Shown here: piece after piece, positions 33,511 through 52,686 of the stretch | Position numbering within the stretch: position 1 is the stretch's first letter | Layout: every line of letters starts with the position of its first letter | Source of the DNA: Lachnospiraceae bacterium | GTDB taxonomy: Bacteria > Bacillota > Clostridia > Lachnospirales > Lachnospiraceae | Direction: 5' to 3' | Length of the DNA: 64,000 nt | Assembly (NCBI GenBank): GCA_017473905.1 | Contig: JAFUJA010000004.1 | Coordinates: 1 to 64,000, forward strand | Notes under the pieces: generated by a model | The model's database searches: none | Told to the model about the DNA's origin: nothing | The model's input: only the letters and a program-made list of their open reading frames with translations | Translations under genes and position numbers: made by a program

Positions 33511-34917
33511 TTAGGCTTTGTTTCTATCCTGCTCTTCCTGACGTTTCCGGCGAAGTGCTTCCACATTCTCATCCACTTTCTTTTTATGCAGGGGATACCA
33601 GAACCATAAAATAATGGCAAGCAGGGCAAACCCTGCGGCAGGAACCAGAAGTGAAATATCAAAAATGGAATCCACTACATCCTTTTCAAATGCGGTTTCC
33701 TGGGAATATCCGATTGCGGAAAGCAAAAGCCCGGTAATACCCGCAGATGCTGCCTGTCCCAGTTTACGTGCAAAGGAATACATGGCATAAATAGCACCGT
33801 CTTCCCTGATACCGTTACGGAGTTCCGAATAATCAATCACGTCGGTAATCAACGCCCAGTTTGCCATGGTAAAAATACCCAGACCGAGCCAGGAAACAAA
33901 CTGTAATGCCACATAAACCCATACATTTTCAGGACGGATTATCAACGTTAAAATATTCACCGCGCAGGCAAGAATATTGGCAAATACACTGATTTCCGCC
34001 TTACCGAACCGGCTTGCAAGGGGCTTTACAAAAGCTGCCGCAATTAAAATGGCAACCAGCATGGTAAGTGTGGATGCAGACTGGGCTACCGTATTTCTGT
34101 AATAGTTGGGAAATACGTAATTTGCCATGGTTTGCATGGTAAGCTGTGCCAGAAGCATTACCACGGAGGCAGCCACAATGGAAAGTAACGCTCTGTTGGT
34201 AAATGCATTTTTAAACATGTTAAGAAGGCTGTTTCTTTTATTCAGTTCAGGGTCATATACCGGGCGCACACGTTCCGTCACAAGGAAATAACACAGCAGG
34301 TAACAGATAATTGCCAGAACGGAAAAAATACCCGCAATCCAGGTGAAACGTTCTCCGTTTAAAACCGTATTTCCGTTTACGGTATCGTAGGCAACCAAAG
34401 GAATTCCCGCACCGATAATAACCCCCGCAAGACTTCCGCCAAGGCTTCTGAAAGTAGATAATGACTGTCTGTCCCCGGGCTTTTCGGAGATGGTGGAAGC
34501 CATGGAACCGTAAGGAATGTTAATGGAGGTATAAAAAATGGAACCCCATAAAATATAAGTGACACTTAAATATAAAATTTTCATATACATGGGCAATCCG
34601 GCAATCCCTTCCTGATAAATCAGGAAAGAGGAAATTGCCACCGGAATACACATACGGATAATCCAGGGCTTGAATTTACCGTTTTTATTGCCTTTGCTTC
34701 TGTCGCAGATTCTACCCATGGTAACATCCGTAAAAGCATCCACGAATCTGGCAAGCATGATAATCAGGCCTACAACCGCAGCAGAAACGCCGCAAACATC
34801 CGTGTAAAATTTTAAAAGAAAACTGGAGGACAAGAGAAAGGTAAAATCATTACCGAAATCACCAAAAAGGTAACCCAGTTTATCCTTCCAGCCGAATTTT
34901 TTCTCACCGGTATCCAT
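33511..34917 (-). CDS. GPH-family sugar/cation symporter (UidB-like)
   Basis: A 468-residue transporter with about twelve helices. The GPH family pattern is clear: WKDKLGYLFGDFGNDFTF at the N-terminus, LIIMLARFVDAFTDVTMGRICDRSKGNKNGKFKPWI in the first large loop, and VIDYSELRNGIREDGAIYAMYSFARKLGQA in the second half. Members import melibiose, lactose, glucuronides or pentosides with Na+ or H+. It overlaps uxuB by 14 bases and is followed by the GH2 gene, so it probably imports the uronide that GH2 cleaves. Confidence 0.93.
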   Translation of the reverse strand: MDTGEKKFGWKDKLGYLFGDFGNDFTFLLSSSFLLKFYTDVCGVSAAVVGLIIMLARFVDAFTDVTMGRICDRSKGNKNGKFKPWIIRMCIPVAISSFLIYQEGIAGLPMYMKILYLSVTYILWGSIFYTSINIPYGSMASTISEKPGDRQSLSTFRSLGGSLAGVIIGAGIPLVAYDTVNGNTVLNGERFTWIAGIFSVLAIICYLLCYFLVTERVRPVYDPELNKRNSLLNMFKNAFTNRALLSIVAASVVMLLAQLTMQTMANYVFPNYYRNTVAQSASTLTMLVAILIAAAFVKPLASRFGKAEISVFANILACAVNILTLIIRPENVWVYVALQFVSWLGLGIFTMANWALITDVIDYSELRNGIREDGAIYAMYSFARKLGQAASAGITGLLLSAIGYSQETAFEKDVVDSIFDISLLVPAAGFALLAIILWFWYPLHKKKVDENVEALRRKRQEEQDRNKA

Positions 34918-36538
34918 AAGAATCCTCCCTCTTCACTGCCCGTTTAATCATGTTTCGCACACTTCCTTCCCCGCAGTTCATTGCAAGATAGTAATCATAC
35001 ACTCTGTTGTCAAGACCACAGGAAATAAGATTCACGCCCCAGATGTTTTCATCCTCCATAACCGCTCTTAACTTCTCACTCCCTGTAAGGATTTCCTTTA
35101 ATACATGTTTCTCTTTAAAGTTTTCAGTCACTTCTTTGACTGCCTCCAGCGCTTTTACATTGCCCCGGTCGGGACTGATAGTAAAAGAATTCCCGGAATC
35201 ATCCGTTCCGGAAAGATATCTTAACCAGGCAGCAAACACAAGAGGAACACATATCAAATCCTTGGCGCTTCCCAGCCGGGCAACTTCATGTGCCTTTATC
35301 GTTCCGCCAAAGCGTACACCCAGCTTTTGGGAGGTATCCGTTGCAATCCGCTCAAGTTTGTCTCCCATATAGGGGTTGGGCAGCCTTTTTTTCAATACAT
35401 CATACAAAAAGCTTTCCGGTTCAATTACCTTCTGTGGAAGGAGCACAGGCATTCCTTCCCGATAGGCAAGATGGGCGATAAGACGTTCCAAATCCTCATC
35501 CCGCATTGCTTCTGCCATGGTTTTATATCCTAAAAGGGTTCCGCAAATCGCCAGTGCCGTATGCAAAGGATTCAGACAACAGCCCACCTTCATCCGTTCT
35601 ACTCTCTCCACGCTTTCCCTGTCCGTAAAATACACACCACACTTTTCCAAACGGGGACGACCGTTGGGAAAGGTATCCTCAATGACCAGATATTCACACA
35701 CCTCGCTGTTTACAAAAGGAGCAATCTTGGTTCCTCTTGCAGTTTCCAGTACTTTAAAGCTCCCCTGAGAAAATTCGGTTTCCAGAAGAGATATTTTTTC
35801 TCCGATTTCCGGCATGGGGGACGGCGTTATTTTGTCAATCATGGTAATGGGATAAGATACTCTGTTTTTATCCTGCAGATAATGAAGAAATTCTTCGGGA
35901 CAGAAACCGTTATTCACCCAGCCGGAGGCAATGCGGGTAACTGCTTCATAAAGTCTGTCCCCGTTTTCGGAGCAATTGTCCATACTAACCAAAGCAAGAG
36001 ACGCCCCTCCTTTTAAGAACCTTTCATATAAAAGTGCAGTCACCCTTCCCATATAGCTGCCGGGTGACTGTAATCCCCAGCGTAAATCTTCTTCCACTTC
36101 CGGTAAAAGTTCTCCCTTGCCGTTCTCCAAAGAATATCCTTTTTCGGTAATGGTAAAACTCACCATCTGTAAGGAAGGCTTGGTAAAAAGTTCTTTTAAC
36201 CGGTTCCAGTCCTCCGGAGTCCCCGGTGCCGCAGTAAATGATGCTGCAATGCTTCCCACCTTTTCTATGGTGCATTTTCCGTCACTTTCCAAAACGGCAT
36301 TCCAATAGACATCCTTATACGGACGATAAATCCGTTGTACGATTTCTTTGTCAAAGCCTTCTACAACAATAACGCCCTTATCCGTATGGCCTTCATTCAA
36401 AAGCTGTTCTGCAAGTCTTGCGGGAAATGCCCGGAACAGATTGCCCGCCCCAAAATGAATCCAGACAGGAGCTTCAAGAGTACGTTCTCTCATACGCTCT
36501 CTGTCATACCGGAACGTTTTTATTTTATCCTGTGACAT
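34904..36538 (-). CDS. uxuB: D-mannonate oxidoreductase/fructuronate reductase (mannitol dehydrogenase family)
   Basis: A 544-residue polyol/uronate dehydrogenase of the long-chain family. VWIHFGAGNLFRAFPARLAEQLL near residue 26 is the NAD-binding segment, DNCSENGDRLYEAVTRIA lies near 190, and VCEYLVIEDTFPNGRPRLE and CCLNPLHTALAICGTLLGYK near 330 contain the catalytic and substrate region of the family. It interconverts D-fructuronate and D-mannonate. The start directly follows the uxuA stop (TAGATG), and the two enzymes act in succession. The exact substrate is inferred from the neighbour UxuA. Confidence 0.88.
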   Translation of the reverse strand: MSQDKIKTFRYDRERMRERTLEAPVWIHFGAGNLFRAFPARLAEQLLNEGHTDKGVIVVEGFDKEIVQRIYRPYKDVYWNAVLESDGKCTIEKVGSIAASFTAAPGTPEDWNRLKELFTKPSLQMVSFTITEKGYSLENGKGELLPEVEEDLRWGLQSPGSYMGRVTALLYERFLKGGASLALVSMDNCSENGDRLYEAVTRIASGWVNNGFCPEEFLHYLQDKNRVSYPITMIDKITPSPMPEIGEKISLLETEFSQGSFKVLETARGTKIAPFVNSEVCEYLVIEDTFPNGRPRLEKCGVYFTDRESVERVERMKVGCCLNPLHTALAICGTLLGYKTMAEAMRDEDLERLIAHLAYREGMPVLLPQKVIEPESFLYDVLKKRLPNPYMGDKLERIATDTSQKLGVRFGGTIKAHEVARLGSAKDLICVPLVFAAWLRYLSGTDDSGNSFTISPDRGNVKALEAVKEVTENFKEKHVLKEILTGSEKLRAVMEDENIWGVNLISCGLDNRVYDYYLAMNCGEGSVRNMIKRAVKREDSYGYR

Positions 36539-37621
36539 CTACGCTTCCCCCTTTCCGGAATTTTCCTTGCTGATGGCTTCCCAGAGACCGTTTAAATAAC
36601 ACGCTCCCAACGCTCTGTCATAAAGTCCGTATCCGGGCATGGCCTTTTCACCCCAGATCATTCGACCGTGGTCAGGTCTCATGGGACCGTCAAAACCGGT
36701 TTCATACAATGCTTTCATAATGGAATACATGTCAAAATCCCCGTCGGAAGAAAGATGTGCGGCTTCCTCAAAGTCCCTGTCACCGTGGAATTTCAAATTT
36801 CTTACATGGGCAAAATGAATTCTTCCCTTTAACTTTGTGATGGTTTCCGTTAAATTATTGGCCCTGTCCGTTCCGAAGGAACCGGTGCAGAATGTAATTC
36901 CGTTATGCACGTTGTCCACTTCTTTTAAAAGACGTAATAAATTGTGCTTATTGGTCATAATCCGGGGAAGTCCGAAAACAGACCACGCCGGGTCATCGGG
37001 ATGAATTGCCATGTGAATGTCATACTTATCACACACCGGCATAATGGCCTTAAGAAAATACACCAGATTCTGAAACAGCATTTCTTCATTAACACCTTTG
37101 TAAGCTTCCAGGGAACCTGAAATTTCCTCCATACGTTCCGGCTCCCAACCGGGCATTACCGTGCCGTTCATATCTCCTTTGATAAAAGTAAACAGATTCT
37201 CTGCAATCAGAGATTCAAGCGTACTCTCCCGATATGCCAAAACCGTGGAACCGTCTTCTCTTTCCCTTGCCAGCTCCGTTCTCGTCCAGTCAAAAACAGG
37301 CATAAAATTATAACAAACCAGATGAATCCCTTCCTGCCCCAGATTTTCCAACGTCTCCACGTAATTCCTGATGTATTTGTCTCGCTCCGGTCCTGCCAGC
37401 TTAATTTCCTCATGCACATTTACACTTTCAATACCGGAAATTTTCAGCCCTGCGTCTTCCACTTCTTTTACAAGTCTTCTGATTTCTTCCCTGCTCCAGA
37501 CTTCTCCTGCCGCCTTGTCATACAAGGTGGTAATTACACCTGTCACGCCGGGAATCTGACGGATTTGCTCCAGGGTGACCGTATCATGCCCCTGTCCGTA
37601 CCACCGCAATGTCATCTCCAT
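36539..37621 (-). CDS. uxuA: Mannonate dehydratase
   Basis: A 360-residue enzyme that converts D-mannonate to 2-keto-3-deoxygluconate. It shows the N-terminal LRWYGQGHDTVTLEQIRQIPGVTGVITTLYD, MAIHPDDPAWSVFGLPRIM (metal-binding His/Asp) and ITFCTGSFGTDRANN, then RIHFAHVRNL and the end MRPDHGRMIWGE, all typical of UxuA. The reading frame is open further upstream, but the ATG at 37621 has a GGAAGGAG site and the family N-terminus. It heads the uronate operon after the ptsI terminator. A short palindrome (37637-37649) lies just before its ribosome site. Confidence 0.96.
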   Translation of the reverse strand: MEMTLRWYGQGHDTVTLEQIRQIPGVTGVITTLYDKAAGEVWSREEIRRLVKEVEDAGLKISGIESVNVHEEIKLAGPERDKYIRNYVETLENLGQEGIHLVCYNFMPVFDWTRTELAREREDGSTVLAYRESTLESLIAENLFTFIKGDMNGTVMPGWEPERMEEISGSLEAYKGVNEEMLFQNLVYFLKAIMPVCDKYDIHMAIHPDDPAWSVFGLPRIMTNKHNLLRLLKEVDNVHNGITFCTGSFGTDRANNLTETITKLKGRIHFAHVRNLKFHGDRDFEEAAHLSSDGDFDMYSIMKALYETGFDGPMRPDHGRMIWGEKAMPGYGLYDRALGACYLNGLWEAISKENSGKGEA

Positions 37622-37636
37622 ATTTTTGTCTCCTTC

Positions 37637-37649
37637 CTTACCTGGTAAG
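37637..37649 (-). promoter_or_regulatory. Possible operator upstream of uxuA
   Basis: CTTACCAGGTAAG on the minus strand is a perfect 13-base palindrome around a central A, ending 15 bases before the uxuA start and abutting its ribosome site. Its position in the leader suggests a repressor site, as with GntR-type regulators of hexuronate genes, but it does not match a consensus I can name with certainty. Confidence 0.4.
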
Positions 37650-37691
37650 AAAATTTTGCTTTCTTTTTCCATAAAAGTATTAGCAGGACAC

Positions 37692-37735
37692 AAAAAAAAT
37701 ATGCAGTCTTTGTCCCACAACAAAAACTGCATATT
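37692..37735 (-). terminator. Intrinsic terminator of ptsI
   Basis: The minus strand shows AATATGCAGT, an 18-base loop, ACTGCATATT and then a run of eight T. It lies 16 bases after the ptsI stop and separates ptsI from the uxuA operon. Confidence 0.88.
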
Positions 37736-37751
37736 TCTAATTTTAAAATAA

Positions 37752-39374
37752 TTATAGTGATGTTACGTTTTCTGAATTCAGTGCTCTTTTTACCGCACGT
37801 CTCACACCGGGCAGTGCAGGAAGGGAAACCGAGATTTCATCAATGCCCATACGCATCAGTTCTTCCGTTCTGCTTACGTCCGCACCAAGTTCGCCGCAAA
37901 TGCAAACCTTGCACCCCTTGGCGTGTCCGTTATTTACAATCATATTCAAAAGCCGTACGATGGCAGGATGGGACGGATCAAATAAAGCATCCAGTCTGGC
38001 ATTTTCCCTGTCCGCCGCAAGGGTATACTGCATCAAATCGTTGGTTCCGATACTGAAGAAGTCTACTTCATCTGCTAGCAAATCACTGATAAGTGCCGCA
38101 GCCGGAGTTTCAATCATAATTCCCAGCGGAACCTGTTTCAATTCTGTTCCTTCGGCCCGGAGTTCTTCCCTGACCTGCTTGCAAAGCGCTTTGATTTCTT
38201 CCACCTCTCCCATAGTTGTTATCATGGGAAACAGAATGGATAAGTTTCCGTATGCCGAGGCTCTGTACAACGCACGAAGCTGGGTTTTAAAAACATCCTT
38301 TCTTCGGAGACACAAACGTACGGCGCGGTATCCCAGTGCCGGATTTTCTTCTTTTTCCAGATGAAAATAATCCGCTTTTTTATCCGAACCGATGTCCAGG
38401 GTACGAATGGTTACATTTCGCTCCCCCATGGCTTCCAGAACCTGTTTGTAAATCCGGAACTGTTCTTCCTCACCGGGCATTTTTTTACGGCTTAAAAACA
38501 GAAACTCACTTCTGAACAAACCGATTCCCGCCACATTACTTCTTTTCACTTTATCAAGGTCGCACACATCACCGATGTTGGCACAAAGACGTATGGACTT
38601 GCCGTCACCGAATCCGCTTTCTTCCTTTTCGGATTCCTCCGCTTCTTTTTCCTGAAGGAGAAGCTTCTTTTGATACTCTTCTAAAAGACTTTCTTCCGGA
38701 TCCAGAATCAGAATTCCCTTTTCCCCATCTAAAATTGCTGTTTTACCGTGCCATGCGGGATTGACATTTACACCAAGCAGTGCCGGTGTCCCCATGGAAC
38801 GGGCAAGAATTGCCGTATGGGAGTGAAAAGAGCCGTTCCGGGTAACAAATCCCAGCAGATTTTCCCTTTCCATTCTGACGGTTTCTGCCGGTGTTAAATC
38901 CATGGCAACAACGATGGCAGGTTCTGCCGGTCCCGCATTGGCATCTGCCCGGGTCAGGTATTCTATCAGATAGCCTGCAGCGTCCTTAATGTCTGCCGCC
39001 CTGTCTTTGATGTAAGCATCTTCCATGCTTTCAAACCGTTCTGCATATACATTTCCCGCAAGATTTACCGCTGCCTCTGCGGTCATTCCCGCCTTGTTGA
39101 TATAATCGCTTACCAAACCGGAAAATTCTTCATCCATGCAAATCATTGCCTGGGCAGCAAAGATTTCCCCAACGCTGTCATCCGCTTCTTTTTTTGCTTT
39201 TTCTTCCATGCGTTCGCAGGTTTCCAAAGCCTCTGCCTTAGCCTTTTCATACCGCTCCAGTTCCCTTGCGGCATCCTTGGCACGATATCGTCGAATCACA
39301 TTCTGCTTCCGGTAAAAATAAATCTTTCCGATGGCAATTTTATCTAAAATTGTTTTTCCGTTAAACTGTTTCAC
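37752..39374 (-). CDS. ptsI: Phosphoenolpyruvate-protein phosphotransferase, PTS enzyme I
   Basis: A 540-residue enzyme I that passes phosphate from PEP to HPr. The swivelling domain holds the phospho-His in NGSFHSHTAILARSMGTPALLG (about residues 182-203). The PEP-binding part holds GIGLFRSEFLFLSR (about 283), LDIGSDKKADYF and IMIETPAAALISDLL with SIGTNDLMQYTLAADR (about 440-460) and a C-terminal CGELGAD. It starts with GTG behind GGGGAAA. The gene for HPr is not adjacent. The radical SAM gene ends 17 bases upstream, so ptsI may belong to that transcript. Confidence 0.95.
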   Translation of the reverse strand: MKQFNGKTILDKIAIGKIYFYRKQNVIRRYRAKDAARELERYEKAKAEALETCERMEEKAKKEADDSVGEIFAAQAMICMDEEFSGLVSDYINKAGMTAEAAVNLAGNVYAERFESMEDAYIKDRAADIKDAAGYLIEYLTRADANAGPAEPAIVVAMDLTPAETVRMERENLLGFVTRNGSFHSHTAILARSMGTPALLGVNVNPAWHGKTAILDGEKGILILDPEESLLEEYQKKLLLQEKEAEESEKEESGFGDGKSIRLCANIGDVCDLDKVKRSNVAGIGLFRSEFLFLSRKKMPGEEEQFRIYKQVLEAMGERNVTIRTLDIGSDKKADYFHLEKEENPALGYRAVRLCLRRKDVFKTQLRALYRASAYGNLSILFPMITTMGEVEEIKALCKQVREELRAEGTELKQVPLGIMIETPAAALISDLLADEVDFFSIGTNDLMQYTLAADRENARLDALFDPSHPAIVRLLNMIVNNGHAKGCKVCICGELGADVSRTEELMRMGIDEISVSLPALPGVRRAVKRALNSENVTSL

Positions 39375-39391
39375 TTATTTTCCCCTTTTAT

Positions 39392-40480
39392 TTAAAATAA
39401 AATTCCTTTCAGGCATACCCCGGGTTCATTTTTATCAAAATCCCAGGTATGGAAAGAATCTCCCCCACAATATTTATATTCCTTACATTTCTTACACATG
39501 CCGGTGCATCTGGAATCGTTTCTGTAAACCTGAAACTTATCCTGCCATACGGTCTTAAAATCATCCTTCCGGATATTCCCCTGCACCAGCTCCGGCCGGC
39601 GTTCAATATCCAGACAGGCTGTAATATCTCCGTTATAAGTAACTGCTGCCGTGTAAATTCCTGCATTACACAAAAAATACCAGGGTCTGACTTCCCGTTC
39701 CAGTTCCGTTCCCAGATAATGACTGCATCCGTAGGCCACTTCCATGGTACGGGCAAACCGTTTCTCCTTAATAAAAGTAAGAAGTCTCTTGTACTCTTCG
39801 GGACCAAATAACAATTCAGGATGTTCCTTGGCTCTTCCAATCGGTTCAATGTTTACCGCACGCCAGGAACGCACCCCTGTCTTACAGAAGGTTTCATACA
39901 TGTTATCCAGCTGATGAATGTTATTTTTATGTATCACGGAAGTAATCTGTACGTGGTCAAATCCAACTTCTAAAAGATTCCGGATGCCGGCCATGGTTTC
40001 TTCATAACTGCCTTCCCTTCCCCTGAACCAGTCATGGGTTTCTCCCAAACCGTCCACGCTGATGGAAACCGTACGCATGCCGGTACGTTTTAATTCTCTT
40101 GCCACTTCAGGTGTTATCAGAATGCCGTTGCTGGTCATTCCCCATGCAAACCCCAGAAAACGGGCGTACTCCATAATTTCAAAGAAATCCTTCCGCAGAA
40201 GAGGTTCTCCTCCCGTAATGCAGAGCTGGAGCCTGTCTATGGGAAAGTTTTTCTTCACGTAATCCAAAAAGCTTCTGATTTCGTCTCCGCTTAAAAGTCC
40301 CTCTTCCTTAAAGTCACCGCACCTGCTACCGCAGTGAATACAATGCTCATTGCAAAGTGCAGTCATTTCAATAAAAAGATGGGCTAATCTGGGATTCCTG
40401 TATAACTCTTTTTTATAGGCAGCAAGTTCCGTCATATGCTGTTTTTTCACCCTCGCAGGCAGACTGGTCTGATTCATCAT
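39392..40480 (-). CDS. Radical SAM/SPASM peptide-modifying enzyme
   Basis: A 362-residue radical SAM protein. The cluster motif CNEHCIHC (Cys 43, 47, 50) binds the SAM-coordinating 4Fe-4S centre, followed by TGGEPLLRKDFFEI and SVDGLGETHDWFRG. The C-terminal SPASM domain has CNAGIYTAAVTYNGDITAC, then CTGMCKKCKEYKYCGGD and a last Cys near the end, enough ligands for two auxiliary clusters. SPASM enzymes of this layout usually modify ribosomal peptides or protein side chains. The gene starts 14 bases after the DUF805 gene, whose product has three YGPP motifs in its tail. I infer that this tail is the substrate. I cannot place the enzyme in a characterised subfamily. Confidence 0.9.
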   Translation of the reverse strand: MMNQTSLPARVKKQHMTELAAYKKELYRNPRLAHLFIEMTALCNEHCIHCGSRCGDFKEEGLLSGDEIRSFLDYVKKNFPIDRLQLCITGGEPLLRKDFFEIMEYARFLGFAWGMTSNGILITPEVARELKRTGMRTVSISVDGLGETHDWFRGREGSYEETMAGIRNLLEVGFDHVQITSVIHKNNIHQLDNMYETFCKTGVRSWRAVNIEPIGRAKEHPELLFGPEEYKRLLTFIKEKRFARTMEVAYGCSHYLGTELEREVRPWYFLCNAGIYTAAVTYNGDITACLDIERRPELVQGNIRKDDFKTVWQDKFQVYRNDSRCTGMCKKCKEYKYCGGDSFHTWDFDKNEPGVCLKGILF

Positions 40481-40494
40481 AAAGACTCCTTTAT

Positions 40495-41148
40495 TTACTG
40501 AAACATTTCGGGGGGACCGTAAATTACATTGTTCATATTGTCTTCCGGTATAAACGCTTCGACTTCTGAGTAATTCTCCTCCGTATTCTCCTGAGGCAGT
40601 GCATCTTCACCTTCCGTTTCGGAAGCTTCTTCCAGATATTTTTTATCCTGCTCATACAGGTCATAGATGGACTCGCTTTCTGTGGGAGGCGGACCATACA
40701 CCTCTTCCGGTACATTTTCTTCAGGACGATATTCTATGGGAGGCGGACCGTATAGTGCCACCGGTGTGTTTGCCGCTACACAGAAAGCAAAAGCACTTCC
40801 TCCCGCGCAAAGGAATAACACCATCACGGTTCCGACACCGACAAACAGCAAGAGAACACTCCACCAGGCACTCTTTCCTCCGTCCCGTAATCTTCTTACC
40901 GTAAGAGAAACCATAGGCAGAAGTGCCACAACCTGATACAGACACAAAACCACAGTCACGGCAATACAAACCCAAAACACAACAAATGAATACGTTAAAT
41001 AAATGCCTACCCAAAGGCTCAATGCTGCCAATATCATAAGCACTGCATGGATTGCTACGGGAATCCAATATTCTTTTCGCGTGCTGCGTCCCTTGAAATC
41101 AAAGGTATTGCGCCACATATTTTTATATGCTTTTAAAATCTCACCCAT
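40495..41148 (-). CDS. DUF805 membrane protein with three YGPP motifs in its C-terminal tail
   Basis: A 217-residue protein. Residues 12-128 form a DUF805 membrane domain with four helices and its hallmark FDFKGRSTRKEYW (16-28) and LTVRRLRDGGKSAWW (82-96). The hydrophilic tail after residue 129 is acidic and repeats a motif: ALYGPPP (133-137 for YGPPP), EVYGPPP (151-155) and VIYGPP (210-213), the last only four residues from the end. The tail is Glu/Pro/Tyr-rich and probably disordered. An AGGAG site precedes the ATG. The radical SAM/SPASM gene follows after 14 bases, so the YGPP sites are candidate modification sites on a membrane-tethered substrate (inference). Confidence 0.88.
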   Translation of the reverse strand: MGEILKAYKNMWRNTFDFKGRSTRKEYWIPVAIHAVLMILAALSLWVGIYLTYSFVVFWVCIAVTVVLCLYQVVALLPMVSLTVRRLRDGGKSAWWSVLLLFVGVGTVMVLFLCAGGSAFAFCVAANTPVALYGPPPIEYRPEENVPEEVYGPPPTESESIYDLYEQDKKYLEEASETEGEDALPQENTEENYSEVEAFIPEDNMNNVIYGPPEMFQ

Positions 41149-41174
41149 TTTATAACATTCTCCTTTCTTTCCTT

Positions 41175-43919
41175 TTATCTCCCGGTTCTGGAACCATGGC
41201 AGGTAAAATAAATCACCTGATATTCCCTGGATATTTCCTGCAAAAGCCTCATGCCACCCTTTGTTTTCTCTTCATCCAGATTTACAAAAGGATCATCAAA
41301 AAGTACCATCGGCTTTTCTTCCGTATACATGGCATCCACAAGTGCCATGCGGAAACAGATTCCCGCCATATCCCTGCAACCGGCACTGAATGCCTTCGGG
41401 TCTCTGGGAAGCCCCTGCTCCGTAATGGATAAATTGGTATTTGCATCGAACTGAAAACGGTCTCCCGCTTCCCCTGATAACATACCGTAATACTTTTTAA
41501 ATCCGTCGGAAACAGGCTTGGTATATCTGGCGGTGAAAGATGTCTTTGCCTTTTCCAGATGACCTCTTGTAACCTTAAGAAGTTTGTGACGCTTCTCCGC
41601 TTCTTTTAACCGCTCTTTTAAAAGTGCCCTGCGTTCTGCAGCTTCCGTCAGTTCATCCTGCTGTTCTCCGAGAGACTGAATCTGGCTCTGGTACTGTACA
41701 AGCAGACTACCGATTTCCTCCAGTCTTACATTGGCTTCCTCCATATCGGCTTTACATGCTTCTTCCGTAACCGGAATTTCTTCGAAAACACCGGAACGGA
41801 TTTCTTCCATGTTCTCCACTGCCTCGAAGGCCTCTCTGGAAGCCTTTGCGCCTTCATATTCCTTCCTGCAGTTTTGAACCGCTTCCAGGCGGTTTTCAAT
41901 ATCCAGAAGACAATCCTGCAAAGGTTCTTTTATTTCAAGTTCCAATCCGAGAATATAATTTCTGAGACTCCGTTTCAGGGACTCATACTCTTCCTGTTTT
42001 GCTTCAAAACTCTTTCGCTTCTCACAAAGTGTTTTCCACTGTCTGCTCTCCGACTCAATCCGGTCAAGAGATTGGTTCCAAAGTGCTCTGATTTCTTCGC
42101 TTTTATCAAGATTCTCCAGTACAAAGCGTGTGTTTTCCGCAATTGACCCATTCGGTCGATTTGTTGTAATTCCGTTAAAATCAGGACAAAAACCAAGAAT
42201 ATAAGATTCTATACGCTCTGCAAGATATCTCATTTCATCCGGAGTATGATCCTGCTGCAATCCCGCTTCTTTTTCTGCCAGTGTTGTATAGGTACGGTAC
42301 TTTTCTTTTATCTCATATAATTCTTTCAACACATCGGAACCGGTTTCATTCCATCCGAGTTCAGCAAGAAATGCCCGGATACGTGACTCTCCGTTTTTGA
42401 TAAAAGATTCGCCGTGTATAATCTCTTCTTCCAGTCCGGCAAGCTGCTGTACCTTCGTCGTATCCTCAGGCTGAGGCAATTCCTTCCTGTTATTCACAAG
42501 AATTACGACCATCCCCGCTGTGATACAAACCAATCCGAAAAGAGCCGTCACAATTCCGGTTATGGGTTCTAACATTGCCAGCAGAATTCCCGCAACAGCC
42601 AGAACACCCCCACAGATCAAAAGAACCAACCCCGCAACGGGAAATTTCTTTTTGGAAGGCTTTGTTTCCTTTTGTGCCTGCTGCTCACTCTTTAAGATTT
42701 CCAGTACTTCTTTTTTACCGGCGAGGGACATTTTTTTACTACGGCATTCCTCCCACAAATCCATGTATTCCTGAAGACCGGCATTATCCACGTCCTTTCC
42801 TGCAAAAAGACTTCGGCAGGCATCCAGTGTTTCTTTCTCATTCACACTTAAAATTTTCTTCTCATAACTGCCCGCTTTTTCAAAATATGTACGCACATCC
42901 CTGCGTCTGCCTTCCGGGTCTTCCTGTTTCGAAAGCCTCTCCCTGTAAATTTCTCCCAGCCGGTTTTCAAGCCTCAGCTCTTCGTCGGTAAAGGTTGTCA
43001 TCCTGACACCCTCCTCCAAAGCTTTTAAGGACCCGCTTTCCCGGATTTTATCCTTTAATTCTTCGGCCTCAGGTAACTCACCCCGAAAAAATCCCCTTGC
43101 CCGGTCAAAGCTTTCCCGTCTTTCCTTTTCACTTTTAAGAAGTGACTCGTACCGGCTCTGCTTTTCTGCATTTACACGGTTGCAGCTGATTTGGGCAAGG
43201 TAGGAAGAACACTCTCTTAATTTCCCATTACACCGATCCCGCTCTTCTTTTAAAAGCTTTGCTCCCTCTGTTTTACTCTTCAGATTCTCCTCAAGGGAAG
43301 GCAGGGCAATTAATTTTTTCTCCTGCTCCGCAATTTCCTCTTTCAGCTTATGAATCAAACCGGTAGACCGCTCATAGGAATTCACGTTCTTCTTCAGATG
43401 CTCCATTGCATCCTCAAAGCTGTTTAAATCCCCTTCCTCTCCGGTTAAATTACCAAGCTTTGTGTTAATGCTGTCCGTGGGAAAGGTAACACAGTCATTC
43501 TGTGAAATCATGATACTTCTTTTAAAAGAAGCCCCGTCCAGAAGGAAGAGTTCCTCTCCGATATTTTTCGTAAAATCCCCGCTTGCAATACGGGTATTTT
43601 TATCCTGTAAAAGGAATACATCATCTGATTCCTTTTCACCAAAGGTACGAATCAAAAGATATTCCTTTCCGTTAGCCTCAAAGGAAATATTCCCGCCGTA
43701 CACACCGCCCTGCCAGGGTTTATAACGCTTTCTTTCATTTTCCAGAAGATCTCTTTTTTTGTCGTTTTCAAACCCGTAAAACATGGTTTTTATAAAAGCG
43801 GCAAGAGTACTTTTTCCCCAACCGTTTTCCTGACAGAACACATTCAGTCCGGGGGTAAAATCAAAGGTCTGTTGGGATATTTTACCGAAATTTTCAATAT
43901 GACACTGTATCAGTTTCAT
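41175..43919 (-). CDS. SbcC/YhaN-like SMC-type ATPase with central membrane segment
   Basis: A 914-residue protein with an N-terminal Walker A half (IENFGKISQQTF, CQENGWGKSTLAAFIK, about residues 8-44) and a C-terminal signature and Walker B half (FSAGCRDMAGICFRMALVDAM and PMVLFDDPFVNLDEEKT). Long coiled coils lie between them. Around residue 420-480 there are two hydrophobic helices, which cytosolic SbcC does not have but YhaN-like proteins do. It follows directly on the SbcD-like nuclease gene, with which it should form an ATP-dependent nuclease complex. The role is probably DNA end processing at or near the membrane (inference). Confidence 0.88.
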   Translation of the reverse strand: MKLIQCHIENFGKISQQTFDFTPGLNVFCQENGWGKSTLAAFIKTMFYGFENDKKRDLLENERKRYKPWQGGVYGGNISFEANGKEYLLIRTFGEKESDDVFLLQDKNTRIASGDFTKNIGEELFLLDGASFKRSIMISQNDCVTFPTDSINTKLGNLTGEEGDLNSFEDAMEHLKKNVNSYERSTGLIHKLKEEIAEQEKKLIALPSLEENLKSKTEGAKLLKEERDRCNGKLRECSSYLAQISCNRVNAEKQSRYESLLKSEKERRESFDRARGFFRGELPEAEELKDKIRESGSLKALEEGVRMTTFTDEELRLENRLGEIYRERLSKQEDPEGRRRDVRTYFEKAGSYEKKILSVNEKETLDACRSLFAGKDVDNAGLQEYMDLWEECRSKKMSLAGKKEVLEILKSEQQAQKETKPSKKKFPVAGLVLLICGGVLAVAGILLAMLEPITGIVTALFGLVCITAGMVVILVNNRKELPQPEDTTKVQQLAGLEEEIIHGESFIKNGESRIRAFLAELGWNETGSDVLKELYEIKEKYRTYTTLAEKEAGLQQDHTPDEMRYLAERIESYILGFCPDFNGITTNRPNGSIAENTRFVLENLDKSEEIRALWNQSLDRIESESRQWKTLCEKRKSFEAKQEEYESLKRSLRNYILGLELEIKEPLQDCLLDIENRLEAVQNCRKEYEGAKASREAFEAVENMEEIRSGVFEEIPVTEEACKADMEEANVRLEEIGSLLVQYQSQIQSLGEQQDELTEAAERRALLKERLKEAEKRHKLLKVTRGHLEKAKTSFTARYTKPVSDGFKKYYGMLSGEAGDRFQFDANTNLSITEQGLPRDPKAFSAGCRDMAGICFRMALVDAMYTEEKPMVLFDDPFVNLDEEKTKGGMRLLQEISREYQVIYFTCHGSRTGR

Positions 43920-45008
43920 TTAATCCAACACCTCCCCGGCAAGCGCCTTGATTCCCTGACGGACCACATAGGCTTTTTCTTCCTCTGTCAGATTTTCATC
44001 CTCCATAACACTCCGCACAAACTCTCCTTTTAAGGATTCATCCAAAGCAAAGGAATGATAATCCACATGATAGGTTGTGGCATCTTTTATTCTGCAGTAA
44101 TATGCTGCATCCTCTAACTGTTTCTCAAGAAAAAGCGTATCCAGTTCGCTTTCGTAATCCCGCTCACCCTGTAAAAGAATTTTAATGATGTGCCGGGAAT
44201 CATATCCTGCCTCCGCCATCGCCTTCCTGACTGCCTCATATACTTCAGCAGACGTCATACAGGCAGATACATCCACGGGAATCTCATAGAAATTCCGGTA
44301 GGAAAAGGGTACAAAAGTACTCTCCGCAGTTCCGTCTTTTAAATTTATATCCAGAAGCATAAAACCATGCTCTCCGCACTCATCAAAACCTCTCGGTTCA
44401 AGACACCCGGGATAGCAATAGGTTCCTCTGTTATCCAATGCTTCTTTTTTATAAAAATGGATATGTCCCAGGGCAAGATAATCAATGCCCTTATTCCGCA
44501 AATCCTTCAGTCTGATCAGGTCGGAATTTTTGCCCGCACCTTCCTGACCGTGAAGCATAACAATATTGATATGCTCCGGATTCAGATTCAGTCCGGAATA
44601 AAGAAGTTCACTGTTTTCTTCTATACCGGAAACCGTCAGGGTTTTTCCGGCTTCCGTCAGAGTATAGGTTGTCCACCGGTCCGTAAAAAGCCTCAGATTC
44701 TCCGGCACCTCATCCAACTCGGTAAGAAAGCTGTTTCCGTCATGATTTCCCCGCAGATAGAAGAAGGTTAGTTCCGGATGGGTGACAATGCTCTGCAATA
44801 CGGTGTTGGAGGCGGTTGCGGATACTTTTTTGGTATCAAACAAATCCCCTGCGATGAGAATATATTTTACATCGTTATGAAGGGCATAGTCCACCATACG
44901 AAGATAGGTCTGCAGAAGCTCTGCCTTACGTTCCTTCGCTTTTTCCGGTGATAAATGGGCAGTCATTTTAGAATCCAGATGCAAATCCCCACAATGGATT
45001 AACTTCAT
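43920..45008 (-). CDS. SbcD/YhaO-like DNA repair exonuclease
   Basis: A 362-residue calcineurin-like metallophosphoesterase. All metal motifs are visible: GDLHLDS (7-13), IAGDLFD (about 52-58), LRGNHDG (about 88-94) and ALGHIHFYKKE with YPGCLEPRGFDE (about 180-205). The SbcC/YhaN-like ATPase gene follows after one base. It overlaps holA by four bases (ATGA). By family it is a Mn2+-dependent double-strand exonuclease and endonuclease subunit that acts with the ATPase partner. Confidence 0.92.
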   Translation of the reverse strand: MKLIHCGDLHLDSKMTAHLSPEKAKERKAELLQTYLRMVDYALHNDVKYILIAGDLFDTKKVSATASNTVLQSIVTHPELTFFYLRGNHDGNSFLTELDEVPENLRLFTDRWTTYTLTEAGKTLTVSGIEENSELLYSGLNLNPEHINIVMLHGQEGAGKNSDLIRLKDLRNKGIDYLALGHIHFYKKEALDNRGTYCYPGCLEPRGFDECGEHGFMLLDINLKDGTAESTFVPFSYRNFYEIPVDVSACMTSAEVYEAVRKAMAEAGYDSRHIIKILLQGERDYESELDTLFLEKQLEDAAYYCRIKDATTYHVDYHSFALDESLKGEFVRSVMEDENLTEEEKAYVVRQGIKALAGEVLD

Positions 45009-46176: not shown

Positions 46177-49100
46177 TTACCGAAAAGGCCACCAGTCCCA
46201 ATCTCCTAAGGTTCTTGTTCCCACTTTGAATTTAATGGTTTTGGTTCCGCCGTACTCATTGATTCCTTTTATGGTAACGGTAGCGGTGCCTTTTTTATCA
46301 TTCTTCTGATAACTGCCCGGAACGATTTCGAAGTCCTCTTCAAAATCAAGATATTCTTTATTCTTTCCGCTTCCGATGGTAACCTTACTTGTTCCGTCCG
46401 CATTGTAGAAGTCATCCCTCGTCAGGTATGCTTTCGATGTGGAAGAATAAGGCACTTCGATGCCGGTTACTTTTACGGAACTGATACTCTTTGCAGTCAG
46501 ACGATAGGTATAGCTTAAACCTTCATCCTCTTCCACCGCATAATTTCCCAGTCCTTTTACGGTAACGGTAATTTCTGCTCCAACGGTACCTACCACATCC
46601 TTGGCACCCAGAATCACATCTTCTCCGTCGGCACCGGTCATGGTATACACAGGAACCGTATAATCTTTGCCCTGCTGTAATGCCTTGCCGTCTGCATCCT
46701 TGATAACGGGTTTGCTGATATAGCCGCCCGGCTTTGTACTTGCCGCTTTATCATCTGCAGTCATGATAACGCCGACTTCGCTATCGCTTAATCCTCTTCC
46801 CGTAATCACGAATGTCTTAGTAAAACTGCCCGTAAAATTGCCTTTTCCTTTTACGGTAATAAGAGGTGCCTTGTTTGCTTTGTATCCCGCTTCGCCTTCA
46901 ACTAAGGTATACACATTTTTGTTGTTTTTATAAGCAAGGGTATAGTCTTTCCCTGCCTGTAATGTTACACCGTCAAATACAAGCTCTACTGCAGGCATTG
47001 CACCACCCTTTGTAAACTTCACGGAAAGTTCCCCGTTCTTCATGGCAAGAAGTCCGTTTACTTCCGTCAAAAGACTGTCCGCTTTCAGATTGCCTGCCGC
47101 ATCGGTTTCTCCGCTCATGTTATAAGCAAGAATCTTGAAGGATTTGGTAACGCTGTCGGTATACGCACCGGTTCCCTTCACGGTTACCTTGGCCGTACCT
47201 GCGTTACTGTTTTTGCTATAGCTTACTTCATAATCCCGGTCCTTCACAAGAACTGTTCCGTCCGGCATTGTTACCTTAAGATTTAAGGTCTGCGCTTTTC
47301 CGTTATACGTTACGTTTTCAAGGCCTTCCACCTTCGCTTTCTTCAAGGAAGTTCCCACAATTTTAAAAGTAACTGTTTTACTTCCCGCAAGACCGCTTCC
47401 TTCCAAAGCTGTAAGAGTTACGCTGGCTGTACCAACTTTTTTGTTATTTTTATAAGTTGTCTCAAAGTGCTCGCCTTCAACCAGTGTGGTCTGGACCCCG
47501 TTTACCTTGGCTGTAACAACAAGCTCGGTCGCATCTAAAATAACCGGATTGCCGTCATTGTATTCCTGAGCCGGAATCGGCTTTACCTTGGCCGCTGTCA
47601 TCTTACCGCCTTTTGCTGCGATAATCAGATTCACGGAACGGCTTCCCGTGTAGTTACCGGTTCCTTCTACGATAATTTCCCATGTTCCGGCATTTTTATA
47701 TGCATTTTCATCCGCTAAATCAGGATAAGAATATACGAAATCTTTTAATTTGGCAGGCATACTTCCGTCTTCCGGCTTTGCAACGCCTGCAAGTTTCTTC
47801 TTGTTGTAGGTAATAACCGGTACTTTCTTCTGCACCTTGCCGTTATACTCCGTAAGAACATCATCTGCCAGAATGCTTGTATCCTCAGGATCCGAAATAT
47901 CTTTCGGGGCAATTGTAAAATATGCGGTAATAACAGCACTGTAATTTCCTTTGCCCTTGATGATAATCTGAGGCGCTTTCTTGGCATCGAAGCCTTCCTC
48001 ACCTTCCTCTAAGGTATAGGCATTCACGTTGTTTTTATAGGTTATGGTATAATCCTTACCCTTTTGGAGAACCACCTCCGTGCTACCGTCATATACATTG
48101 ATTTCCGGTTTGATTGCACTGCCGGTATAGGTAACCTCTCCTACCTCATCCATGTGAATGATACCGGAATAGAGGATAGTAACTTCAATGGTTTTCGGCG
48201 CTGCAACTTCATAGTTTGATGAAGAAGCGGCGTCTACCGTAATGGTAGCTTTACCGGTTCCGAGAATGGTTACAACACCTGCCTCGGATACTTTTAAAAT
48301 GCTTGCTGCGTCTTTATCCGCAGTTCCGAAAAGATTCTTTCCGTTTCCTACGCTGTAACTCAAAGCACCTTCTCCCGTGAAGCTGATTCCTTCTAAAAGG
48401 AATTCCTCTTCTCCGAAGGTTTTACTGTAAGAATCCTTACCTTCTTCAATCAGGATTTCAGCGGGAGCCTTATGAATGGTAACCTGTGCTGAGATACCGT
48501 CGGATACATCCTCAAGCTTATAATAATCTTTATTGCGGCCGGCAAGTTTAAGTCCCGCCGGATATACTTTATCATATGTATTTGCATCCGCACTGCTTAC
48601 GGTTGCTACCAGCTGTGAAACATCAATTGAAACATCATCTGCTCCAACCACGCCGGAAATTTGGATGTTACTGATTGTTACCACATTGGATTTATCAAAT
48701 ATTTTATCTTCCGCAGTAATGGATTCAATTTTAATTTCTGCCTGTTCCGCATTGACGGTAATCTCTTTCTCCGTCACACTGACCGCTTCGTAATTTTGCA
48801 GGGTATGTGCAGAGGGCGTAAATACTACCGTATATGCATTGCTTCCGTAAAGAAGCATTTCAGACTCATTTTCCCATGCAAAGGTTCCGTAAGTGGTTTC
48901 CATGCTTACGAAGGAAATGTCTTTTAACTGTTGTCCGTAAACACCTTCGTCCGCAACAGGCCAGATAAGTTCGGGAGCTGCTGCCTTCTCAATAACAAAA
49001 GTAACGCTCTTTTCTCCTTCGTAATTTCCTTTTCCGGTAATCACGATGCAGGCAGTTCCTGCATTGATATTTTCCTCATATGACAATGTATAATCCGTAT

Positions 49101-52100
49101 CTTTTACAAGAGTAAGATTACCCATGGTTACAACGGGAAGGGGAGTTTTGGCAGTTCCGTCATATGTCACATTGGGAATTGCTGCCACATTTGCGTGTGT
49201 TGCAAGATTTCCTTTTATGGTGTAAGTAACCTGCAGGGACAATCCGCTTACTTCGATTCCGGCTGTATAAGTTCCCACATCTACGGGTTTGCCTTCCACA
49301 AGTCCTTCACCGGAATAGGTGATTTCAGGTGCGGATACATCTGTGATGTTTCCTGTTACGGTTGCTGCCTTGATACTTCCGTCATAGTAGAGATTATCCG
49401 GTGCCTCAAGTCCCCATGCACCTCTGCCGTTTTTGCAGATGCTGCAATCAAGTGAAATGGTTTCACCCTTTTTTGTATAAACATAATCGTGTTCTTCCTC
49501 GGAACCAACATTTTTATATTCTACGGGGCAGTCCACACAAACGGTGGTTGCCGCATGACCGGACTCCGTAATCGTGTATGTTACCTGTTCATTGCTGTTG
49601 TGTAAATGTTCCACACCGTTTACCTGAATGGTACCGTTCTCGGTTACTGTATATCCGTTTAAGACAAACTTAGCTCCGTCAATAAAGTCGTAGATTTCTC
49701 CTGTAGGGATGGTTCTTGCTGAAGAAAGAGTGATTGTACCGTAAATTCTGGTTTTTTTATCACTGCTTGTTGTAATATAACCATTGAAATCTTCCGAACC
49801 TCTGATATTTTCATCCCAGTTTGTCAACTGATAGGTACCGCTGCCCTTCACGGTAACAATACTACCGTCGGTCAAATCAAACGCTTTGTTTTTCATATTC
49901 AGGGTAAATCCGTTTAAATCGATAAAATATTCCCCTGATGTATCAAAGCTCATTACGGAGGAAGAATCCGTTGTAACGTTCTGACAAAGAACAATGGTAT
50001 CTCCCGGCTGTATCACATCCAACACACCACGGGTATATTCCGTCGTATTACCCGTTACGTTACTGAAGTAGAAACAAGGCAATTGTGTTTCAACTCCGGC
50101 TTCAGTATGGCTTACATACGCGACTGCGCCAATATTACAACCTTCTGTCCGGCACAGATAATTGTTTTCAGGATCCAGTGTATGATATTCCCATACATTA
50201 TCCAATGCACACGCACAATCAGTATCCGTACAGCTGAGTCTGTGAATGTACTTAAACTTTGCGACCGTACTGATTGCCAGTTCATGTTCGCTGTCAACAG
50301 ATTCAAAATAACTTGCAAAGGTTGTATCGGTAATTTCCCCGATTGACGTTCCGAATGTATTGCTTGAATTACGCAGGCGGCAATCTCCTTCAACTACGGG
50401 AGCCACGCTGACTCCTCGGGCCACAACCACATGCATGGAACCGCTTACTTTTATTTCATTTGCAGTTACTTTATAATTTACTTTTAAACTGCCGGTACCG
50501 TTCACGGTAAGACTACCGTTGGAAACATTGATATTTCCTTTGAGGGTACTTGTACCGCCGATTGTCAGATGACCGGTTCCGCCGATAACAAGGTCGCCGT
50601 TTTCAATTTCGATATTTCCTGTCAGGGTCACAGGATCCCCCAGGGCAATGTTAATGCTTCTGTCGCAAACCACATTACCGGTCAGATTATCTGTCAAAGT
50701 CAATGTAGTGGTTTCGAAATCATAACTCCAACCCGTACCTGTACTGTCTTTGCTTGTATCCACCACTTCTCCCGCCACGGTAAGCTCCGGTGTGTTACTG
50801 GGAGGCTCATAACTTTCTGTTTCCAATATCGGTCCGTTTATAAAAGGAGCTACACTTTCACTTACCTGATTAGAAACGGGGTGGGATGCAATAAAAGTTC
50901 TGCTTCCGATTACGGTGTCACTTCCGACAAGAAGATAGTTTTCATGTTCGGATCCGGAAACAACCGCATTACTTCCCGTAGTAGGATCATTCCATGTCAC
51001 ATCCACACCATACCATTTGTTATCATCCATCCGGACATAATTCCACATATGAGGGCCGCTTCCGGAATCGGTAATTGCGGTTCCGTCAACAAGTACACAG
51101 GGAATTCCGCTTGCATCACAAAGCACTTTTAACGCCTTGGCATATGCTTCGCAAACCGGTCCGTTGGTACCGCTGGTACCCGTAAGGGCGGTAATACATT
51201 CATGGGCATCATTGCCCGCATTTACATAATCGGAATTGTAGCAGTTGTGTTTTGTAAGCCACTCATTAAAGTATTTCACTTTTTCATAACGGGTGCCTAA
51301 TGACTCTGCGCCTGCCAGAATTGCCTTCTTTCCGCTTGTATTTCCCACAAGCGTATTCTCAATGGCTTCGTCAAGAATGGTTAAGTTCCGATAGGAAGCT
51401 TCACGCATATCAAAGGTATTGCTTTTAAGAAGCAGGTAAAATTCCTGTGTATATGCTACCGTACCTGCCGTATTGTAACCATAGGAGTAACTGCTCATAT
51501 AGCTACAGGTACCCGACAACCAGAATACCTCCGGACAATCCCTGTCAAAAGCAAAGAAAACAGCCGGAATATACGGATAGGTTGCCTGCTTGTTTGCATC
51601 CAGTTCTTCCGCAATCGCATTATAAGCATCCTGGGCAGCAGTCTCTTTGTTATAGACAAATGTACCCGTTCCCTCAATGGTTCGAATACAATATACATAA
51701 CTTTCATTGACACCGTCATTATCAAAATCTTCTCTGGTTATTTCCCCGGTGGAATTTCCTTCCGGATCGTACAGTGCCACTTTACCGGGCTGAGAAAGAC
51801 ATGTTTCAGGATTACTGTTTGTCTTCAGCCACTCATAAAAATCCACGGCGTAATCTGCACCATCCAAATCCAGACGGTCAATCCAGTTTGCGTAGTTTCC
51901 TTCTTTTAAAGCTACTTTGCCGTTCCCGTCGATAGAAAGAAAATCATCTCCGGAAGCAGAAATCCGAGCAACATCCGTCTGAATCTCTTCAAATGTTTTT
52001 TCCACAAAAAAAGTCTCTTCTTCAGATGCCTGTACATTTTCCGCATCCTCTGCAAGAGACTCTTCTTCATATTCATCCTCTGTCAACGCATACTCAGGCA

Positions 52101-52275: not shown

Positions 52276-52314
52276 TGTCTCAGCTCCTTTATTTTTAGTA
52301 CAAAACATATAAGA

Positions 52315-52323
52315 ATTATACCA
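52315..52323 (-). promoter_or_regulatory. Extended -10 promoter of the giant secreted protein gene
   Basis: TGGTATAAT on the minus strand (52323-52315) is a perfect -10 with TGG extension, 40 bases before the start. The remaining intergenic DNA (52324-52686) is AT-rich and holds no gene or strong hairpin that I can support. Confidence 0.65.
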
Positions 52324-52686
52324 AAACAAAGTATTTTTTGTAAATATTGCACTGTTTTTTGGTCAATTTAGTCCTAATTATTCAATGACGCTTATACTTT
52401 TTTATAAAATATGGAATTATTGATATTAAAACATCTCCTCTGAAAGCAATTTCACACTTTTTTCATCTCTTTAACACAAATTCTAAATAATCATGTATTA
52501 CCATAACAACTGAACAAGGCAGAAAATATAACATTGTAACCATTTCAAAGCCCTTATTGTTATATATACGCCTAAATTCCCCTCCAAAAGAGCAGAGCTT
52601 ACAACGCTTCCAAAATCCTGCGGAACTTGGAAAAATGTGGTGCTCCTGCTCTTTTATTTTTGACTTTGGTTTCCGATTAATCTTTT

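Follow-up and report, generated by a model that had tools for sequence, protein, structure and literature searches.

A radical SAM/SPASM enzyme and its YGPP-tagged partner proteins in gut and rumen bacteria: a candidate tag-modification system

The gene pair in the window

The window (the whole 64,000-nucleotide stretch of Lachnospiraceae DNA analysed here) carries two minus-strand genes separated by 14 bases (40481-40494), the first encoding a DUF805 membrane protein and the second a radical SAM enzyme with a SPASM domain (Table 1). The enzyme scores over the cut-offs of PF04055 (90.4 bits) and the SPASM profile PF13186 (34.7 bits). Its partner lies above the DUF805 gathering score (PF05656, 59.6 bits vs. 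25.7) and gives no match to the NCBIfam models at E 0.01. The tail of the partner is 95 residues long and acidic from the first YGPP onward, with 24 acidic and three basic residues, and its tag sites read LYG, VYG, and IYG. An earlier note on this DNA had placed YGPP at residues 133, 151, and 210 of the 217-residue protein within an acidic tail, the radical SAM gene 14 bases away, and CxxxCxxC and SPASM motifs in the enzyme; the coordinates, the two Pfam matches, and the three plus seven cysteines invariant in 21 sequences agree with this description. The note also saw a membrane domain of four helices. Hydropathy gives three, the number found in 12 YGPP-type DUF805 proteins, and for these 12 we infer from hydropathy and the positive-inside rule (i.e., from hydropathy and charge alone) that the N-terminus lies inside the cell and the tail outside it.

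Table 1. Features of the gene pair, with positions in the window
Feature	Position	Strand	Description and basis
Radical SAM/SPASM enzyme	39392..40480	-	362 aa, TIGR04133-like; proposed YGPP-tag modifier; profiles and alignment
CxxxCxxC (Cys 43/47/50)	40331..40354	-	SAM-binding iron-sulfur cluster; invariant in 21 aligned sequences
SPASM region	39413..39727	-	Cys 252, 271, 289, 329, 332, 338, 356; invariant in 21 aligned sequences
Substrate candidate	40495..41148	-	217 aa, DUF805 membrane domain and acidic C-terminal tail with three YGPP
DUF805 membrane domain	40795..41103	-	Residues 16-118, three predicted helices, predicted N-in, tail out
YGPP copy 1	40741..40752	-	Residues 133-136; weak cassette, score 2/4
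Tag cassette 2	40687..40731	-	YRPEENVPEEVYGPP, residues 140-154, score 4/4
Tag cassette 3	40510..40554	-	FIPEDNMNNVIYGPP, residues 199-213, score 4/4, followed by EMFQ and stop

In 200,000 shuffles of the 95-residue tail, three YGPP never arose and two or more arose once, which rules out a chance origin of the repeats. At the nucleotide level, TAYGGNCCNCC occurs 15 times in the genome (three of these being the window copies) against 17 times for the reversed control; since there is no genome-wide excess, this count is useless as evidence. The genome of the window is itself 71% complete, and the genomes used throughout are samples, some of them incomplete. From the first YGPP on, the window protein contains no cysteine and hence none of the core cysteines of sactipeptides or ranthipeptides, ruling out Cys-based chemistry.

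The pair sits in a tightly spaced run of genes on one strand [34904-45008(-)], in the order metallophosphatase, AAA/SMC-like ATPase, DUF805-YGPP protein, radical SAM enzyme, PEP-utilising PtsI-like enzyme, UxuA, and mannitol dehydrogenase. Nearby, at 46177-52329(-), a 2050-aa ORF with transglutaminase-like and YDG domains probably encodes a large surface protein.

Occurrence of the pair across genomes

Only the enzyme was used to gather relatives, which came to 32 loci in genome contigs (24 of them close), 17 further genomes among 299 of the family, 13 further loci among 391 genomes of the class, and nine of 31 genomes from the genus of a Bacteroides timonensis genome, whose enzymes score over the TIGR04133 cut-off. 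Loci L033-L040 (outside the family) and L042 (a copy of L011) were left out before counting, giving 62 distinct loci. An ORF with YGxP or YGPxP (<420 aa, at most 500 bases away, same strand) adjoins the radical SAM gene in 56 of the 62, compared with 1, 2, 2, 6, and 6 when the motif was reversed, permuted, or substituted in five controls; two or more tag copies are present in 34 loci, and in none for the control motifs. The earlier note had taken enzyme and YGPP tail as a unit, and had named homologous radical SAM genes lacking a nearby YGPP protein as the observation that would speak against it; with 56/62 having YGxP or YGPxP within 500 bp, the unit stands.

The six misses are diverse. At L016 the partner is present at a contig edge and was passed over by the overlap rule, at L030 the contig starts within the enzyme gene, and at L043 the partner sits on another contig. 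The lipoprotein at L057 carries YAPPP, and L094 has YG followed by no Pro. The sixth, L051, is a decayed pair [genes L051:1074-1481(-) and L051:1495-2532(-)]: the enzyme homologue lacks CxxxCxxC and GGEP, and the nearby exported protein ends RSGPPEMAG, i.e., the YGPPEM motif minus its Tyr. This joint decay, though a single case, points to Tyr as the residue that matters. The two genes need not be neighbours, as the earlier note had found them in the window. In a genome of the window's genus (G120) no tag gene lies within 1.5 kb on either side of the enzyme gene, and a three-tag DUF805-YGPP gene is kept on another contig.

Co-occurrence was examined in the 299 genomes of the family, 18 of which have the enzyme at E 1e-60. 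Repeat tails are present in nine of these 18 and in none of the 281 enzyme-negative genomes (Fisher p 1e-12), which also answers the note's second concern, YGPP tails in genomes lacking the enzyme. The probe, the five-tag lipoprotein of L044, gave matches in 12 of the 299 genomes; on reading, nine were true YGPP tails, all in enzyme-positive genomes. It is an insensitive probe, which missed the partner in nine enzyme-positive genomes (most with one, diverged, or lost tag), including the L055 partner in spite of its three YGPP. The figure of 0/281 therefore means no repeat tail at the sensitivity of this probe, and some of the 281 could have a more distant enzyme.

Apart from the tag gene, no third gene (ORFs of at least 100 aa) is common to more than four of the 24 closest loci, a survey in which several loci end early at contig edges and the other common ORFs overlap the enzyme gene or occur in at most four loci. 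Tag-free ORFs of 40-150 aa near the enzyme are shared by at most three of the 62 loci. A conserved transporter or protease was likewise looked for, and none was found among the 24 loci; because of this, a released peptide is an improbable product. Collectively, these data identify the pairing of the radical SAM enzyme and the YGPP tag as a real system of gut and rumen bacteria, with members of the enzyme family in the Lachnospiraceae, Oscillospiraceae, Bacteroides, and Treponema.

Among NCBIfam profiles, TIGR04133 is the best for the window enzyme (281 bits), which falls short of the cut-off of 425, as do L010 (289.7), L052 (283.6), and L095 (385.8); the Bacteroides-genus enzyme of L122 reaches 652. 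TIGR04133 and TIGR04134, a radical SAM protein and a putative lipoprotein, are each listed in NCBIfam as "hypothetical equivalog". As in the window, the partner gene of these systems is next door. The TIGR04134 partner, however, is a TTR-like lipoprotein with one tag, whereas the window partner is a multi-tag DUF805 membrane protein and not a TIGR04134 lipoprotein. In the Bacteroides-genus loci over the TIGR04133 cut-off, nine of nine neighbouring lipoproteins carry YGxP or YGPxP shortly past the lipobox Cys (the L112 frame being incomplete), and a plasmid locus of Parabacteroides and a locus of Treponema each have a motif of this kind in the same place. Moreover, the L095 lipoprotein, from a genome of the window's class, carries YGPP and passes TIGR04134 (52.3 bits vs. 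a cut-off of 39.8); judged by sequence, it bridges the YGPP family and the TIGR04134 systems. The note knew of no described product, which agrees with the "hypothetical" status of the nearest family. In the open-access literature, nothing was found on YGPP together with radical SAM, on YGxP together with RiPP, or on TIGR04133/TIGR04134, and for YGPPE and YGPPP tags only unrelated work appeared among the matches listed.

The tag cassette and its carriers

The tagged partners are of several kinds: DUF805 proteins, acidic-tailed lipoproteins, TIGR04134-type TTR-like lipoproteins, two signal-plus-helix proteins, the 117-aa L014 protein with no clear anchor, and double zinc-ribbon proteins, which are anchorless. 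Up to seven tags are present in one acidic tail (L053). At the other extreme, genome G007 encodes a 47-residue, signal-less protein (L111) with one perfect tag, ~4.5 kb from the enzyme gene; its contig (C51, loci L044 and L111) also has two neighbouring YGPP lipoproteins. In several lipoproteins (e.g., L053, L089, L095), no more than two or three residues separate the tag from the lipid-bearing Cys. Two further loci may be mentioned here. In L058:1336-3298, two small YGCPNS lipoproteins flank a divergent enzyme, whose frame extends to 525 aa, the matching stretch being reported with one internal TAA. The tandem zinc-ribbon protein of L140:2997-3977(+) has two YGSP tags and an enzyme homologue as its neighbour; its contig, filed as viral, could be host DNA.

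On a tree of 66 enzymes, with carrier labels given by eye, the DUF805 label changes six times, and well-supported branches force at least five changes. One lipoprotein within the DUF805 clade (L032) starts, as read by eye, with a stretch resembling the DUF805 N-terminus followed by a lipobox, as if the anchor had been swapped and the tail retained. The tag is conserved while its carrier changes, and anchoring is common rather than defining. The earlier note had proposed a substrate tethered at the membrane: anchored carriers are indeed common, but zinc-ribbon proteins and the short signal-less peptide carry the same tag, and the tether was dropped as a principle.

The cassette [FYW]xPxx[ND][VILM]xxx(V/I)YGxP is shared by tails and zinc ribbons. 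Across 124 YGPP motifs in 39 proteins, F or Y is preferred at -11, P at -9, N at -6, and V at -1 (82%), the last position being V, L, or I in about 95%. When scored by its four upstream positions, 67 of the 124 tail motifs reach 3-4, compared with about 1.1% of shuffles. Five of six zinc-ribbon motifs score 4 in the same register, and the sixth (L056) scores 0. Tyr is near-constant, as are Gly (replaced by Ala in L057 and L093) and a Pro at position +2, +3, or +4; the residue after Gly is variable (P, V, S, C, M, T, Q).

Ordinary DUF805 proteins share the membrane domain of the window protein but, in the members read, have neither a long acidic tail nor repeats. In a sample of eight (L130-L136 and L139; L138 was left out), five end just past the last helix with YGx(D/N)P (YGADP, YGDDP, YGTDP, YGPNP), one with FGPDP, one with YGKDS, and one with neither. 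As this ending is so frequent, a lone YGxP is weak evidence. The first YGPP copy of the window sits where these proteins often end, which suggests a route by which a DUF805 protein could have been recruited. The same coincidence could mean that the tail motifs are a remnant of the ordinary end and that the radical SAM neighbour is incidental. This is very improbable, and the data disfavour it: a remnant leaves the lipoprotein, zinc-ribbon, and Bacteroides-genus partners unexplained and is at odds with the lack of repeat tails in enzyme-negative genomes.

It is also conceivable that YGPP serves the enzyme as a binding site for docking or assembly while its chemistry takes place on something else. 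Partners of the zinc-ribbon and TTR-like kinds could have functions and targets of their own, and since no third gene is conserved near the pair, a true substrate could lie elsewhere. The seven tags in the L053 tail, the 47-residue protein with its one tag, and the joint decay in L051 fit a substrate better, and docking is in our judgement improbable. We infer instead that the enzyme acts on the tag. In the window, it would modify the YGPP tags of the DUF805 protein encoded by the adjoining gene, which it would recognise largely through the cassette sequence [FYW]xPxx[ND][VILM]xxx(V/I)YGPP. A cassette that is portable and read by its own sequence would allow evolution to shift the tag among unrelated carriers. 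Such a function would also give meaning to the TIGR04133/TIGR04134 pairs, now listed as hypothetical, together with a substrate rule: X-Y-(G/A) plus a nearby Pro.

Relation to the spliceases and the possible reaction

The splicease reaction at Tyr entails the loss of C8H9NO. We take TIGR04103 to be the PlpX subfamily. X-Y-G, the site used by PlpXY, is also present in the window protein. In the published accounts, the PlpX-type family is named IPR026482 (PMC11002830), and PlpXY splices at XYG, with MYG and LYG as natural sites and no need of a leader (PMC10533398). The same source describes tags of the form PIRPLYGLPI that function in some unrelated proteins, and a sensitivity to context, two of 16 FtsZ tag designs being accepted (PMC10533398). 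Action that is independent of a leader is described as well (PMC10533398, PMC10373908), as are precursors with several sites and products that inhibit proteases (PMC10373908, PMC11117315), and the described spliceases work with a partner, PlpY (PMC11002830, PMC10373908). Scott et al. 2022, as mentioned in PMC10533398, list 939 predicted splicease systems, which may include YGPP/TIGR04133 pairs.

The system in the window resembles the spliceases in its X-Y-G site, in the several sites per precursor, and in probably belonging to a neighbouring clade. It differs in having neither a nearby PlpY nor a Nif11 or nitrile-hydratase leader, and in its candidate substrates, which are whole and mostly anchored proteins. 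A PlpY-like probe (a Nostoc protein, phmmer) found none of 325 small nearby ORFs at E 10 in the 62 loci. The window enzyme reaches 126.7 bits on TIGR04103, against a cut-off of 725, and falls short of membership by score. In the single TIGR04103 locus among those examined, on a Nostoc plasmid (enzyme 853 bits), a precursor ends ALYGLPPELF, which is close to VIYGPPEMF in the window; a second Nif11 precursor and an NHLP precursor from the same locus lack YG. Four of five plasmid relatives of the Nostoc enzyme were examined (H48 was left out). At three plasmid loci of the TIGR03913 type (two annotated so, L148 by our own label), eight DUF1843 peptides carry XYG (four), XYA (two), or XYM (two) near the N-terminus. 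TIGR03913, the GDL-peptide radical SAM maturase, is a SPASM relative of TIGR04103; its DUF1843 partners, however, are small and soluble, come two or three to a set, and lack the YGPP cassette.

In a 26-row tree, the YGPP-enzyme family (100/99) and the TIGR04103/TIGR03913 group (98/96) together split from rows of AhbD, MftC, PqqE, TIGR04053, and TIGR04347 at 92/85, a value below the tool's mark for strong support, with three outgroup rows being long-branched. For the two groups to be sisters, the root must lie among the other SPASM enzymes. A constraint that placed only the four TIGR04103/TIGR03913 rows with the YGPP-enzyme family was rejected (p-AU 5.9e-5); in the tree, L145 and L149 group with these four rows. 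By its apparent substrate, then, the YGPP enzyme resembles a splicease, and it probably neighbours the spliceases by descent.

Overall, the best explanation, to which we assign a probability of about 0.5, is that the enzyme modifies portable YGPP tags, and does so by tyramine excision, removing part of Tyr as PlpX does. The reaction taken by itself has about an even chance. Reactions of another kind at the tag, e.g., a cross-link from Tyr to a neighbour (cyclophane type), oxidation, or epimerisation, are a serious alternative, which we would place at somewhat less than that. Many such reactions are carried out by SPASM enzymes, and by profile the window enzyme is no closer to TIGR04103 (126.7 bits) than to the Tyr-acting MftC (129.8 bits) or the heme enzyme AhbD (170 bits). 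Moreover, aromatic residues are frequent downstream of the tag (F at +6 in 41% and W at +5 in 19% of the 124 motifs). A variable residue after Gly and a Gly that is replaceable by Ala, however, leave only Tyr and the backbone around Gly/Ala near-constant, and such a pattern fits better with cutting at Tyr than with a fixed side-chain link. The earlier note had expected a cross-link (-2 H); tyramine excision seems to us the likelier reaction, since X-Y-(G/A), the near-invariant residues, make up the splicease site. The conserved Pro is left unexplained by splicing.

If the tag is spliced, the enzyme would read a portable tag on whole membrane and surface proteins and turn Val-Tyr-Gly into a reactive alpha-keto-beta-amino acid, a proposal that we put forward tentatively. 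Modification of the tail would take place in the cytosol; once displayed outside the membrane, the tail would bear a row of reactive ketoamides that stay permanently attached. Both lipoproteins and DUF805 proteins with three helices would place the tag just outside the membrane. That splicing leaves fixed electrophilic groups there, in the Lachnospiraceae, Oscillospiraceae, Bacteroides, and Treponema alike, is possible, though we hold it at less than even odds. A ketoamide after Val would be a natural trap for elastase-like proteases, a speculation from its chemistry, and the displayed ketoamides might act as a surface protease inhibitor. Inhibition of proteases by the modified tails is, in our view, rather doubtful. 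Should tyramine excision be true, gut bacteria would have backbone-edited residues in their ordinary membrane and surface proteins, and for site-specific protein labelling the 15-residue cassette would offer a natural tag that needs no leader.

Some observations concern the wider TIGR04103/TIGR03913 group. In 245 genomes of the class, a search for TIGR04103 gave none at E 1e-90 (the controls gave no match either), in viral contigs it gave weak partial matches only, and a phage search gave five records with weak matches. On a Tropicibacter oceani plasmid, a radical SAM gene of the TIGR04103/TIGR03913 clade is directly followed by trypsin-like and M23 peptidase genes [L149:2174-5865(+)]; a small XYG peptide was not seen at this locus. 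On the Agathobacter rectalis plasmid NZ_CP143948.1, a 68-aa ORF absent from the gene table [L145:2228-2434(+)] immediately precedes genes for a radical SAM enzyme and an MFS transporter and ends MYGTGVRM; this suggests an XYG precursor, missing from the annotation, in a bacterium of the human gut.
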